Source: Opitutales bacterium
GTDB taxonomy: Bacteria > Verrucomicrobiota > Verrucomicrobiia > Opitutales > Opitutaceae
NCBI GenBank assembly: GCA_018700525.1
Contig: JABITN010000106.1
Location: 1 to 45,531, forward strand
DNA length: 45,531 bases
Reading direction: 5' to 3'
Translations under genes and position numbers: made by a program
Notes under the pieces: generated by a model
Databases searched by the model: none
Seen by the model: only the letters and a program-made list of their open reading frames with translations
Told to the model about the DNA's origin: nothing
Shown: in pieces, positions 17,683-32,335 of the stretch
Layout: each line of letters opens with the position of its first letter
How positions within the stretch are numbered: position 1 is the first letter of the stretch

Positions 17683-17952
17683 TCACTCCTCCGTCAATTT
17701 GTATTTCTGTTCCAGATAAACTATTAATTCTTCAATTCTCGAGACACGTTCACTTTGAGAGCCAACTCTCTCTCCATAAGCGGTCCCCGGTTCCATCGCG
17801 ACAATTTGGCGCCCCAGCACTTCCTGATATGCTTCCCTCGAACGCCGACGGCTATCGACAGCAACTGTCTCGCGAGAGACAGGCCGTTGCCGATAAACCA
17901 TTGCTTCCCCTCTATGAGGTGCGACCGAGATTTCCGACCCAACCCCAAGCAT
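17683..17952 (-). CDS. Small hypothetical protein coupled to lexA
   Basis: An 89-residue protein whose ATG at 17952 shares a base with the lexA stop (TGATG), a typical reinitiation arrangement. The product is unrecognised. It has an Arg-rich middle (DSRRRSREAY, 33-42) and a C-terminal stretch with heptad-like hydrophobics (VSRIEELIVYLEQKYKL, about 70-86) that could form a short coiled coil. No signal peptide or known domain is seen. It is followed at once by another small gene. As part of a lexA transcript it would rise after DNA damage; a role as a damage-response modulator, for instance of division or polymerase activity, is only a guess. Confidence 0.6.
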   Translation of the reverse strand: MLGVGSEISVAPHRGEAMVYRQRPVSRETVAVDSRRRSREAYQEVLGRQIVAMEPGTAYGERVGSQSERVSRIEELIVYLEQKYKLTEE

Positions 17953-18557
17953 CAAAACGCCCTCCGTATTAATGCTACCATGACTCCTTGCACGACGAGT
18001 TCCATCGCCGGAATCAAATCAGGATAGGCCGAGTTCTCTGCCTTCAAAAAAGGCCGCCCCTCCCTCATGATAAAACACTTCAACGTCGTCTCCCCGTCAA
18101 TCAAAGCCGCAACCACATCCCCATCACGCGGCTCCTTATATTCGAGAATGACGACATCTCCTTCTTGGATATGAGCGTCTATCATAGAATCCCCACGAAC
18201 CGTTAGAGCGAACGTCCGAGCCGAATCGGAAACTCCGATCGACGCCAAATCCACCCCAACTCCACCTTCTGCGACCGCATCGCCATAAGTTGGCATCCCA
18301 GCCGGAATACTCCCCAAAAGCGGAATTGAACTAAAGCTATCCGTATTTACAGGAAGTAAATCCCCAGGCAAGCGACGCAGAAATCCCTTTCGCTCCAAAG
18401 CCTTCAAATGATTAACCGCAGCCGTCTGGCTAGCGAAACCAAAGAAACGTTGAATCTCGCGCGTCGACGGCATGCGACCCAACTCGGAGCGACGCCTTTG
18501 GACGAAATCCATAATCTCCCGCTGCCGTTTTGTGAGCAAATCCTTAAATGTGTTCAT
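17952..18557 (-). CDS. lexA: LexA SOS repressor
   Basis: A LexA repressor of about 201 residues, numbered here from the longer start at 18566 (204 residues). A winged-helix DNA-binding domain (about 8-70, LTKRQREIMDFVQ at its start) is followed by the self-cleaving S24 domain. The cleavage site Ala89-Gly90 (SIPAGMP), nucleophile Ser127 (GDSM) and general base Lys163 are all present. RecA-stimulated autocleavage is therefore expected to be normal. I prefer the fourth codon (18557) as start, because the predicted promoter would begin transcription near 18561. It leads a three-gene set with two small ORFs and has a palindrome over its start that probably binds LexA. Confidence 0.9.
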   Translation of the reverse strand: MNTFKDLLTKRQREIMDFVQRRRSELGRMPSTREIQRFFGFASQTAAVNHLKALERKGFLRRLPGDLLPVNTDSFSSIPLLGSIPAGMPTYGDAVAEGGVGVDLASIGVSDSARTFALTVRGDSMIDAHIQEGDVVILEYKEPRDGDVVAALIDGETTLKCFIMREGRPFLKAENSAYPDLIPAMELVVQGVMVALIRRAF

Positions 18558-18594
18558 GAACACCATTAAGATAGGTTGAATCGCCGCCTGTCAA
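18550..18594 (-). promoter_or_regulatory. lexA promoter with palindromic LexA-box candidate
   Basis: Minus strand: TTGACA (18594 to 18589), a 15-base spacer, then TATCTT (18573 to 18568). The predicted start point falls on a perfect 14-base palindrome, GTGTTCATGAACAC (18550-18563), which also contains the preferred start codon. From memory, verrucomicrobial LexA boxes are inverted TGTTC/GAACA half-sites. Here those halves are two bases apart, closer than the spacing I recall. The position fits autorepression. Confidence 0.5.
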
Positions 18595-26812: not shown

Positions 26813-27619
26813 ATGACCCCTAAAACATGGATTGCCGGCGAATTTCTCGGCACTTTCCTTCTCGTCCTTTTCGGCTGCGGCAGCGTCGCGACCGCTGTCG
26901 CCTGCGGAGCTCAAGTCGGAATCTTTCAAGTCGCTATCGTGTGGGGCTTCGGACTAACCGTAGCGATTATCCTCACCGGACCGCTCAGTGGAGCTCACCT
27001 GAATCCCGCGATCACGCTTGCAATGGTCGTCTTCCGATCCTTCCCCAAGCGCCAAGCGGCCGCCTACATTCTAATTCAATTCCTAGGAGCCTTCGCAGCT
27101 GCTTCGCTCATCTATCTCGTTTACGGCGGAGTCATCGAACTCTTCGAACAAACCAACGGCATCGTTCGAGGACAAGCGGGTAGCGAAGCCAGCGCCATGA
27201 TCTTCGGCGAATACTATCCCAACCCAAGCGGTGAAACGATCAATGAAGCCGCTCGCGGCTCAGTCACCGCCTTCCACGGATTCCTCGCAGAATTCATCGG
27301 CACCGCTTTGCTATCATTGGTCATCTTCGGGATCACCGACAAACGCCGCAAAACCCTGCCCGGACCCGCCATTCCCTTCGTAATCGGCATGACTCTAACC
27401 GTTCTCATTTCGCTATTGGCACCGATTTCCATGGGTGGCTTCAATCCCGCGCGAGACCTCGCTCCCCGAATATTCTCGAGCCTAGCCGGCTGGGGTGATC
27501 TACCATTCACGCTTAACGGCAGCGGCTGGTTCATCGTTTACGTATTCGCTCCGATTGCGGGAGCCATCTGCGGCGGATTTACCAATCAACTCCTCCCCGC
27601 CAACTATTTAAAAGCGTAA
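26813..27619 (+). CDS. aqpS: Aquaglyceroporin (MIP family), arsenite channel of the ars operon
   Basis: A 268-residue MIP-family channel with the expected hydrophobic segments and both pore motifs: NPA at 64-66 and NPAR at 211-214. The Asp215 after the second motif (NPARD) marks the glycerol-conducting subgroup, whose members pass As(OH)3. As the third gene after arsR and arsC, it most likely lets arsenite formed by ArsC leave by facilitated diffusion, as AqpS does in Sinorhizobium, replacing ArsB or Acr3. No efflux pump gene for arsenite occurs in the window. The gene symbol is assigned by this analogy. Confidence 0.8.
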   Translation: MTPKTWIAGEFLGTFLLVLFGCGSVATAVACGAQVGIFQVAIVWGFGLTVAIILTGPLSGAHLNPAITLAMVVFRSFPKRQAAAYILIQFLGAFAAASLIYLVYGGVIELFEQTNGIVRGQAGSEASAMIFGEYYPNPSGETINEAARGSVTAFHGFLAEFIGTALLSLVIFGITDKRRKTLPGPAIPFVIGMTLTVLISLLAPISMGGFNPARDLAPRIFSSLAGWGDLPFTLNGSGWFIVYVFAPIAGAICGGFTNQLLPANYLKA

Positions 27620-29153: not shown

Positions 29154-29681
29154 ATGCCCACCCAAGTCATCAACGATAGCGAGATCTATCAGCGCGTCAC
29201 TCTAGAAGCCGTTCCCCAGGCCCAGACTTTCATCTGGATAGCCACCGCCGATATCAAAGACATGTACGTCAAGCAGGGGCCACGCATGATTCCATTTCTT
29301 CAGATGCTCTCAAACCTTATCGACACCGGAGTATCCATTCGAATAATACATGCAAAAGAACCTGGCCCCGCATTCCGAAAAGACTTCGATCGATTCCCCA
29401 ACCTCATCGACGGACTAGAGATGATTCTCTGTCCGAGGACTCATTTCAAAACCGTCATCGTTGACGGGAAAACAGCCTACACCGGCAGTGCCAATCTAAC
29501 CGGAGCCGGAATGGGAGCCAAATCCGAAAACCGGCGAAACTTCGAATCGGGAATCTTTTCCGACGATCCAGAGATCATCCACCCCCTAATGGAGCAATTC
29601 GACAAACTCTGGATCGGCGGTCACTGCAAGCCCTGTCAACGCAAAGCTTACTGCGTAACCTACCACGAACTCATTGGGTAA
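29154..29681 (+). CDS. Single-HKD phospholipase D-like protein with C-terminal Cys/His cluster
   Basis: A 175-residue PLD-superfamily protein with one HKD motif: His97, Lys99 and Asp104, then GSANLTG (111-117). Single-HKD proteins act as dimers; relatives include Nuc-type endonucleases and some phosphodiesterases. There is no signal peptide when the ATG at 29154 is used. The C-terminus holds a compact Cys/His group, His157-Cys158, Cys161, Cys167 and His171 (GGHCKPCQRKAYC), which could bind a metal. It lies 69 bases upstream of the XRE-cyclase gene on the same strand, so the two may be cotranscribed. Substrate, nucleic acid or lipid, is not determinable. Confidence 0.8.
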   Translation: MPTQVINDSEIYQRVTLEAVPQAQTFIWIATADIKDMYVKQGPRMIPFLQMLSNLIDTGVSIRIIHAKEPGPAFRKDFDRFPNLIDGLEMILCPRTHFKTVIVDGKTAYTGSANLTGAGMGAKSENRRNFESGIFSDDPEIIHPLMEQFDKLWIGGHCKPCQRKAYCVTYHELIG

Positions 29682-29750
29682 TTCCTGCAAAAAGTCAGAT
29701 TCCGCTTTCAACTCGGCCCAGTTTGCCTTTAATCTGCAAGCAGAACGATT

Positions 29751-30485
29751 ATGAACCTTCAAGACCTAGGAGACCGCATCCGCCACCGCCGCAAGAAGTC
29801 TGGACTGACGCAGACCGACATAGCCAATGCCGTGCAAGTGAGCCCTCAAGCTGTCTCCAAATGGGAACGTGGCGAAAACGCCCCTGACATTAGTCTGCTA
29901 CCAGACCTGGCCCAATTGCTTGGAGTATCCATTGAATGGCTACTGGGCTGCCAGAGTATCGATAAAGACGTTATCGAAGCCACAATCGTCGATATTCGAG
30001 CTAGAGCTGCACGCGAAAAATCCGAGCAACTCGAACCCCGCGACTTCGCAAACTGGACCAATAGCGTCTGCTACCAAGTCACCGAATCTACCCTGAGGTT
30101 CGGAGGCATACCCATCAAAACTCGAGGCGCAGGCATCCTCTGCCTATTCTCCGGCAGCTATCACCAAGACCGAGCCATCGACGCGGCTCTAAACGCGATT
30201 CAACTTTTCAATGAACCCCTCAAAGTCGGCATGAGTTCGGGTATGATCTATTTCGGCTCGATCGGTCACCCCGACTATGCACGCCCTGACATTATAGGCG
30301 AAGCGGTCAGCATAGCCCTCCTCAATTCCGAATGGGCTGATGACAACACTCATACTGCAACCGCGATCGACGACAAAACCATCGCCGGCTCCAAGCTCAA
30401 GGATAGTCCAAGTCTAATCAAACGCCAAGTCAGCTTCCCAGGAATCAGTCATCAAGTGACTGCCGTCGAACTACCCATAGATTAG
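29751..30485 (+). CDS. XRE-type HTH regulator fused to a degenerate class III nucleotide-cyclase domain
   Basis: A 244-residue protein with two parts. Residues 5-66 form a clear XRE/Cro helix-turn-helix (TQTDIANAVQVSPQAVSKWERG). Residues about 76-240 follow the class III adenylate/guanylate cyclase pattern: VDIRA (first metal Asp as D81), GGIPIKTRGAG (118-128) in place of GG-x-x-K-x-x-GDG, then GMSSGMIYFGSIG (160-172) and IIGEAVSIA (181-189). The second metal Asp is Ala127, so two-metal catalysis is unlikely. The domain probably senses a nucleotide or mediates dimerisation. I infer a one-component transcription factor. It follows the PLD-like gene and is convergent with fba. Confidence 0.75.
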   Translation: MNLQDLGDRIRHRRKKSGLTQTDIANAVQVSPQAVSKWERGENAPDISLLPDLAQLLGVSIEWLLGCQSIDKDVIEATIVDIRARAAREKSEQLEPRDFANWTNSVCYQVTESTLRFGGIPIKTRGAGILCLFSGSYHQDRAIDAALNAIQLFNEPLKVGMSSGMIYFGSIGHPDYARPDIIGEAVSIALLNSEWADDNTHTATAIDDKTIAGSKLKDSPSLIKRQVSFPGISHQVTAVELPID

Positions 30486-31981: not shown

Positions 31982-32335
31982 ATGTCTCAGATAACGATCT
32001 ACCACAACCCTCGCTGTAGCAAAAGCCGTGTAACCCTCGGGATTCTCCAAGATAAAGACGCCGATCTCGAAATCGTTGAATACCTCAAAAATCCGCCCAG
32101 CCCCAGCGAGCTTACCGACATTTGCCAAAAACTAGATGTCGCCCCTACAGCAATCATTCGATCCAAAGAAGCACTTTTCAAAGATCTCGACCTATCCCTC
32201 AAAGACGATCGGTCGCCTGCAGACTGGGTCCGAATTCTAGCCGACAACCCAAAACTTATCGAACGCCCCATCATCGTAAAAGGTTCCCGAGCTACAATCG
32301 GTCGCCCACCGGAAAATGTTCTAGAGCTCCTTTAG
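31982..32335 (+). CDS. ArsC/Spx-fold (glutaredoxin-type) arsenate reductase-like protein
   Basis: A 117-residue protein of the ArsC family with thioredoxin fold. The redox Cys12 lies in NPRCSKSR, and IERPIIVKG (about 91-99) carries the conserved Arg-Pro. It resembles the YfgD/ArsC group, which accepts glutathione/glutaredoxin electrons, rather than Spx, since Cys12 is not part of CxxC. It is not linked to the ars operon at 26 kb, so a role in arsenate reduction is uncertain; a general thiol-redox role is possible. It is divergent from fba, with about 170 bases between. Confidence 0.85.
   Translation: MSQITIYHNPRCSKSRVTLGILQDKDADLEIVEYLKNPPSPSELTDICQKLDVAPTAIIRSKEALFKDLDLSLKDDRSPADWVRILADNPKLIERPIIVKGSRATIGRPPENVLELL

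Follow-up and report, generated by a model that had tools for sequence, protein, structure and literature searches.

The gene at positions 29751-30485 on the forward strand of the window (the whole 45,531-nucleotide stretch of DNA analysed here) encodes what we conclude to be a real, conserved and lineage-restricted pseudocyclase regulator. In this protein, an XRE helix-turn-helix is connected, via a short linker, with a cyclase homology domain of class III that has lost its catalytic residues. The gene and its two domains are located as follows.

29751..30485, forward strand: XRE-pseudocyclase regulator gene, intact from ATG to TAG, 244 amino acids (244 codons plus stop)
29751..29948, forward strand: XRE/HTH_3 DNA-binding domain, residues 1-66, with the Pfam match at residues 10-64
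29955..30482, forward strand: degenerate class III cyclase homology domain, about residues 69-244, delineated by profile, hhalign, alignment and model

The HTH_3 family of Pfam matches residues 10-64 with 60 bits against a cut-off of 23, which places the N-terminal part among the XRE/HTH_3 proteins, and among solved structures the first 66 residues match 434- and P22-type repressor domains best. This N-terminal HTH is all that Pfam lists for the 244-residue protein. Guanylate_cyc gave no match in the regulator at E values up to 10, let alone one reaching its gathering score.

Homology and fold of the C-terminal domain

A cyclase-domain profile built without any regulator orthologue scored 37.5 bits against the whole regulator and 38.9 bits against residues 67-244 alone, for which the best of 2000 shuffles reached 8.6 bits. 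Four of the 34 loci behind this profile (L014-L016 and L027) had first been found using the regulator itself. The single-pair hhalign comparison gave a probability of 97.8 and an E value of 4.2e-12. When the orthologue profile was run against PDB sequences, cyclases made up 12 of the 13 sequences listed at E values up to 10 and were headed by ADCY10 (E 0.0013) and Cya2 (E 0.0022). The NCBIfam LipJ lipase/adenylate cyclase model also matched residues 70-198, weakly (E 0.0079). Judged from these sequence comparisons, the C-terminal part is homologous to class III cyclases despite the missing Guanylate_cyc report, and the fusion of an XRE helix-turn-helix to a class III cyclase-type domain, as read in the original prediction, holds with 60 bits for one half and 38.9 bits for the other. 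The resemblance is selective. There are 20 columns in which at least 85% of the cyclases share one residue; the regulator keeps 11 of them (K123 and mostly glycines) and has lost nine, and the lost set includes all four catalytic positions.

The predicted fold depends on the alignment that is supplied. AlphaFold2 run from 11 orthologues alone (A2) returned a confident HTH and an unreliable remainder (mean pLDDT 54.6), in which most of the cyclase part had a pLDDT below 50 and a helix replaced the first strand. The model made with cyclases in the alignment (A7; 28 rows, including L027 and 16 cyclase domains from viral contigs) had a pLDDT of 87.4 and a pTM of 0.71. In both models, the block-mean pLDDT of residues 1-60 was 77-93. 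The viral-contig cyclases for A7 came from 32 of 80 loci tried, of which 17 were kept at less than 88% similarity and 16 were used. The larger pool is an observation in its own right: 378 of 441 pattern-matched stretches of IMG/VR viral contigs code for relatives of class III cyclases, and 80 of these (L084-L163) were kept.

The top Foldseek match of the A7 model in the PDB was Cya2 (E 2.9e-11), and its VIA-align superposition on CyaC with an ATP analogue (1wc1) gave a Z-score of 23.1 and an rmsd of 1.6 Å over 170 residues. The original prediction stood or fell with the fold of residues 76-240. The model with cyclases in its alignment shows the class III fold there, and the orthologue-only model is too poor to decide. 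Because cyclases were present in its alignment, the A7 model supports the fold but is not an independent proof of it. The profile statistics stand apart from this model, as they have no dependence on predicted structure.

Active-site residues

The roles of the metal, substrate and transition-state residues of class III cyclases are well established. We compared them in a joint alignment of 12 of the 13 orthologues with 33 cyclases, in which three MAFFT modes were identical at the six active-site columns. The alignment took 33 of the 34 cyclase loci, L015 having been dropped by a length filter; the orthologue outside it (G196/L004) has the same six residues on reading its sequence.

29997..29999, forward strand: R83, in the column of the first metal aspartate; Arg in 12/12 orthologues, Asp in 33/33 cyclases
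30117..30119, forward strand: K123, adenine-recognition lysine, retained; 12/12 orthologues, 31/33 cyclases
30129..30131, forward strand: A127, in the column of the second metal aspartate; Ala in 12/12 orthologues, Asp in 33/33 cyclases
30288..30290, forward strand: D180, adenine-recognition aspartate, retained; 12/12 orthologues, in cyclases D 23, T 9 and A 1
30309..30311, forward strand: S187, in place of the transition-state Asn; 12/12 orthologues, in cyclases N 31 and H 2
30321..30323, forward strand: L191, in place of the transition-state Arg; 12/12 orthologues, R in 32/33 cyclases

In addition, P179 replaces the conserved Tyr just before D180 (Y in 31/33 cyclases). The His variant of the transition-state Asn position occurs in L014, L015 and L016, which read VHLAARL there and contribute two such rows to the joint alignment.

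D81 had originally been taken as a retained metal aspartate. This assignment fails, as hhalign, all three MAFFT modes and the viral-contig alignment place the metal column at R83, and D81 sits two residues ahead of it. The column of D81 is Phe in 31/33 cyclases, and D81 itself is Ala in one of the 12 aligned orthologues (L033). The spacing between R83 and A127 is 44, the same as that between the aspartates D15 and D59 of L027, and the spacing between D81 and A127 is 46. The other two assignments, K123 as the substrate-type Lys and Ala127 in place of the second metal Asp, were correct. Since the first metal aspartate column is R83 and not D81, the degeneracy is greater than the original prediction claimed and extends to four positions (R83, A127, S187 and L191).

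Neither the metal aspartate pair nor the transition-state Asn/Arg pair of a class III enzyme was found in any of the 12 aligned orthologues. With both metal aspartates and both transition-state residues replaced, the regulator should not function as a cyclase. The substrate-specifying combination of Lys with Asp or Thr is present in all 12 as K123/D180. Across these orthologues, 89 of the 177 columns of the cyclase-like domain are invariant, and so K123 and D180 would both be invariant by chance in about one case in four. We regard the retention of this pair as suggestive only of ligand binding.

Distribution and selection

Residues 76-244 were used as the query against 252 genomes of the same family. 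There were matches in 16 genomes, of which 13 carry orthologues and three carry remote relatives with longer N-termini and 'GDG' motifs. The orthologues come from 10 of the 11 genomes of the genus (81-100% identity) and from three genomes of two other, related genera (61-70%). In G204, where the regulator was not found, the contig stops about 125 bases past the aldolase gene that flanks it elsewhere, at the expected regulator position. A genome-contig scan recovered one Flavobacterium response-regulator cyclase and 10 orthologues, the latter from records titled Opitutaceae, Opitutales or Verrucomicrobiia. In a sample of the phylum, five of 387 genomes matched; the match in G811 (L080) scored 26.8 bits, and the Pfam scan of one stretch was empty. 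An order-wide search was run at an E value of 1e-25, at which it is able to show close orthologues only. No XRE-cyclase architecture was confirmed in viral contigs, 927 plasmid records matched with no place covering 80% of the query, and a similar HTH was found in none of the 123 cyclase ORFs in 116 fetched loci, as judged with a narrow HTH profile.

The dN/dS ratio could be computed for eight of the 11 pairs of the window copy with an orthologue, the other three being synonymous-saturated. It was 0.008-0.035 for the HTH part and 0.020-0.091 for the C-terminal part; these values are rough because most pairs approach saturation at synonymous sites. By this measure, the gene is under purifying selection and thus constrained rather than decaying. 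In a tree, for which the five XRE rows were cut to 130 residues and L015 was not included, the XRE group forms one clade that joins L014 and L016 at 90/79. This join lies between long branches and may be false.

Genomic neighbourhood

In 12 of the 13 orthologue genomes (the exception is G200), the regulator is flanked by a 3-hydroxyisobutyrate-dehydrogenase-like gene on one side and a class II fructose-bisphosphate aldolase gene on the other, the gaps to the flanking genes being longer in G129 and G130. In two genomes of genus g42 (L188 in G191 and L189 in G189), the dehydrogenase and aldolase genes are adjacent with no regulator between them, which points to an insertion or a loss of the regulator at that point. 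Two features lie immediately upstream in the window.

29154..29681, forward strand: PLDc_2 (PLD-like) gene, upstream of the regulator; its product has one HKD motif and a tail that contains cysteine
29698..29714, forward strand: conserved block of the GATTC-C-CTTTC type, roughly 45 bases ahead of the start codon

The block is kept in most orthologues and is weaker in L025, L026 and L033. The block also occurs in G200, which lacks the PLD gene upstream of the regulator; this suggests that the regulator has its own promoter, and the block is possibly a part of it. A simple scan reported no promoter consensus at the regulator gene. We also considered the block as a regulon motif. Allowing one mismatch, its 16-base pattern occurs at 71 places in the 11 genus genomes, G000 and G196-G205, compared to 16 for the reversed pattern, an excess that is some sign of a real signal even though the control does not preserve dinucleotides; seven of the 71 places are the regulator's own upstream region. 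When 20 of these loci were fetched, two turned out to be the regulator's own, 17 fell within open frames of 110 codons or more, and the remaining one (L173) did not. With 17 of these 18 non-self copies in open frames, we do not take the block for a regulon motif. There is no inverted repeat in 29680-29760, and the searches with the upstream block, for inverted repeats and in the genus genome sequences found no operator or regulon.

Genes of an arsenic-locus type (ArsC, aquaporin, ArsR-like, LMW phosphatase) occur near some copies, and an arsenic locus was dismissed since they are not consistent between genomes. In the window, an aquaporin-family gene (26813-27619) and an ArsC-family gene (31982-32335) lie near the regulator; an ArsR-type HTH lies near the G128 copy (L033:3057-3410) and an LMW phosphatase near the G200 copy (L034:5682-6125).

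Possible function

The reading that we prefer, and to which we give an even chance of being right, is that the protein acts as a one-component regulator and that its inactive cyclase domain binds an adenine nucleotide in a metal-free manner. We favour it because K123 and D180 are retained, the gene is under purifying selection, and no class III or class I cyclase was detected in the genome. According to this mechanism, the protein would form a homodimer, a common state of both XRE regulators and class III domains, and an adenine nucleotide would occupy the former substrate pockets where the two subunits meet, R83 standing in for the metal charge near the phosphates. If R83 replaces that charge, binding would need no metal and no cyclization would follow. 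Ligand occupancy would then alter the dimer geometry, shift the paired HTHs and switch operator binding. ATP, ADP or AMP would be likelier ligands than cAMP, because the organism's own genome is without a detectable class III or class I cyclase. In its most specific form, the proposal describes a metal-independent adenine-nucleotide receptor in which an Arg has replaced the first metal ion, serving as a one-component energy/adenylate sensor, wired directly to DNA, in bacteria without an adenylate cyclase of their own; this we put forward tentatively, as doubtful.

The main rival is a ligand-free dimerization domain, in which the class III dimer merely holds two HTHs together and regulation is exerted via the expression level or a partner. 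We consider it quite possible, if short of probable. None of the four catalytic residues survives, the Tyr that precedes the aspartate has given way to P179, and K123 and D180 could be leftovers in a domain with half of its columns invariant. However, we judge the dN/dS ratio of 0.02-0.09 to be tighter than a passive dimerizer needs, and the two active-site residues that are retained are precisely the adenine-recognising ones.

Alternatively, the regulator could sense cAMP or another cyclic nucleotide, i.e. the product and not a nucleoside phosphate, and act like an alternative CRP. Class III pockets are able to hold the product as well as the substrate, and there is one cNMP_binding protein in the organism's own genome, which is one of three of the 11 genus genomes with this family. 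The cyclases that would supply such a ligand are scarce. Guanylate_cyc has no match in the organism's own genome; it is above the cut-off in only one of the 11 genus genomes, with two more matched below it, and class I cyclases are found in none of the 11, whereas the regulator is present in 10. For comparison, Guanylate_cyc is found in 90 of 141 genomes in a sample of the class. These counts come from class I and class III searches in genomes that are 85-97% complete, with a model (PF00211) that misses degenerate class III members, the regulator included. A cyclic-nucleotide sensor is improbable.

A slightly poorer candidate still is a regulator or antitoxin that is paired with the upstream PLD-like protein in a two-gene module of a defence or toxin-antitoxin-like kind. 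In 11 of the 13 orthologue genomes, the PLDc_2 gene precedes the regulator on the same strand, and a PLD copy exists somewhere in all 13. There are also weak domain-level matches to defence proteins, of the PLD to DrmC/DpdK and of the HTH to RmrA/CapH; in PADLOC, the RmrA model (48 bits, residues 8-113) and CapH models match the regulator. We took the RmrA/CapH matches as similarity at the level of the HTH and rejected a defence regulator. The constant linkage to a toxin gene that characterizes an antitoxin is not observed, as the PLD is on other contigs in two of the 13 genomes (G128 and G200). Furthermore, the PLD gene has four internal stops in G197 (C16:42351-42872) and one in G198 beside an intact regulator, six g42 genomes have the PLD without the regulator, and at the ten loci measured the two genes are 69-274 bases apart with no overlap. 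The unlinked copies and internal stops led us to reject the PLD as an obligate partner, and we take it to be a frequent neighbour and not a required one.

Least probable by a clear step is a protein that is still an enzyme, either through a non-canonical metal-free activity or in a mixed dimer with a catalytic cyclase like mammalian C1/C2, for although the C2-type substrate residues K123 and D180 are kept, the C2-type Asn and Arg are also gone (S187 and L191), and 10 of the 11 genus genomes have no partner cyclase above the cut-off.

Relation to known systems

Inactive class III cyclase domains are known mostly as halves of mixed dimers or as suspected relics, and degenerate GGDEF/EAL domains serve as c-di-GMP receptors. 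The proposed sensor resembles the latter in being a dead nucleotide enzyme kept as a receptor, and differs from them in domain family and ligand. In comparison to CyaC, Cya2, CyaB and OaPAC, the regulator has the same fold, with 15-21% identity in structural alignments, and the same adenine-recognition Lys and Asp, a comparison made here on the 33 aligned cyclases; unlike them, it has four catalytic residues replaced and an N-terminal DNA-binding domain. The only other matches to its C-terminal domain within the family are the response-regulator cyclases L014, L015 and L016, which have a longer, receiver-like N-terminal part and, on a reading of their sequences, both metal aspartates.

The closest described proteins are the Mclx proteins of Mycobacterium tuberculosis (Rv0386, Rv1358 and Rv2488c), in which a cyclase homology domain is followed by an AAA/NB-ARC module and a LuxR HTH (PMC4452763). 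Mclx2 and Mclx3 are reported to be without some catalytic residues, to seem to be without the selectivity residues, and are proposed to bind ATP and/or cAMP allosterically (PMC4452763). A 2016 survey describes architectures with a cyclase domain and an HTH motif and has PF01381 among the families of partner proteins (PMC4886424). The regulator is like Mclx in combining a class III cyclase homology domain with an HTH in one protein. It differs in having the HTH first, of the XRE and not the LuxR type, and in its lineage; the 244-residue protein contains neither a C-terminal LuxR HTH nor a middle AAA/NB-ARC module. It has also lost both metal and both transition-state residues and kept the adenine pair.

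Given the Mclx paper and the 2016 survey, the general idea of a cyclase-HTH protein is already in print. The rarity expected in the original prediction therefore stands for the distribution (13 of 252 family genomes and five of 387 in the phylum sample) and not for cyclase-HTH fusions as such. No XRE-cyclase regulator is described in the literature searched, at the level of titles and the beginnings of abstracts. Within that literature, the features that are new are the XRE type, the domain order, the missing AAA module, the lineage, and the combination of four lost catalytic residues with a retained adenine pair. The regulator is a small (244 amino acids) conserved protein in which a cyclase domain that has the adenine-recognition pair, and none of the catalytic residues, is attached to a DNA-binding domain. 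The use of a cyclase pocket as a direct transcriptional sensor of nucleotides, as suggested for Mclx2/3, could thus be addressed with one protein.

Two further proteins were noted in passing. In G189, a 214-residue protein (L189:3618-4262) adjoins a DUF3307 gene and looks cyclase-like by eye, with 'TGDIVGSR' at its start and 'RGDS' later; it has no Pfam match at 0.001 and is reminiscent of the SatD family. In the window, a LexA-type repressor with Peptidase_S24 and LexA_DNA_bind domains is encoded on the reverse strand at 17952-18566.
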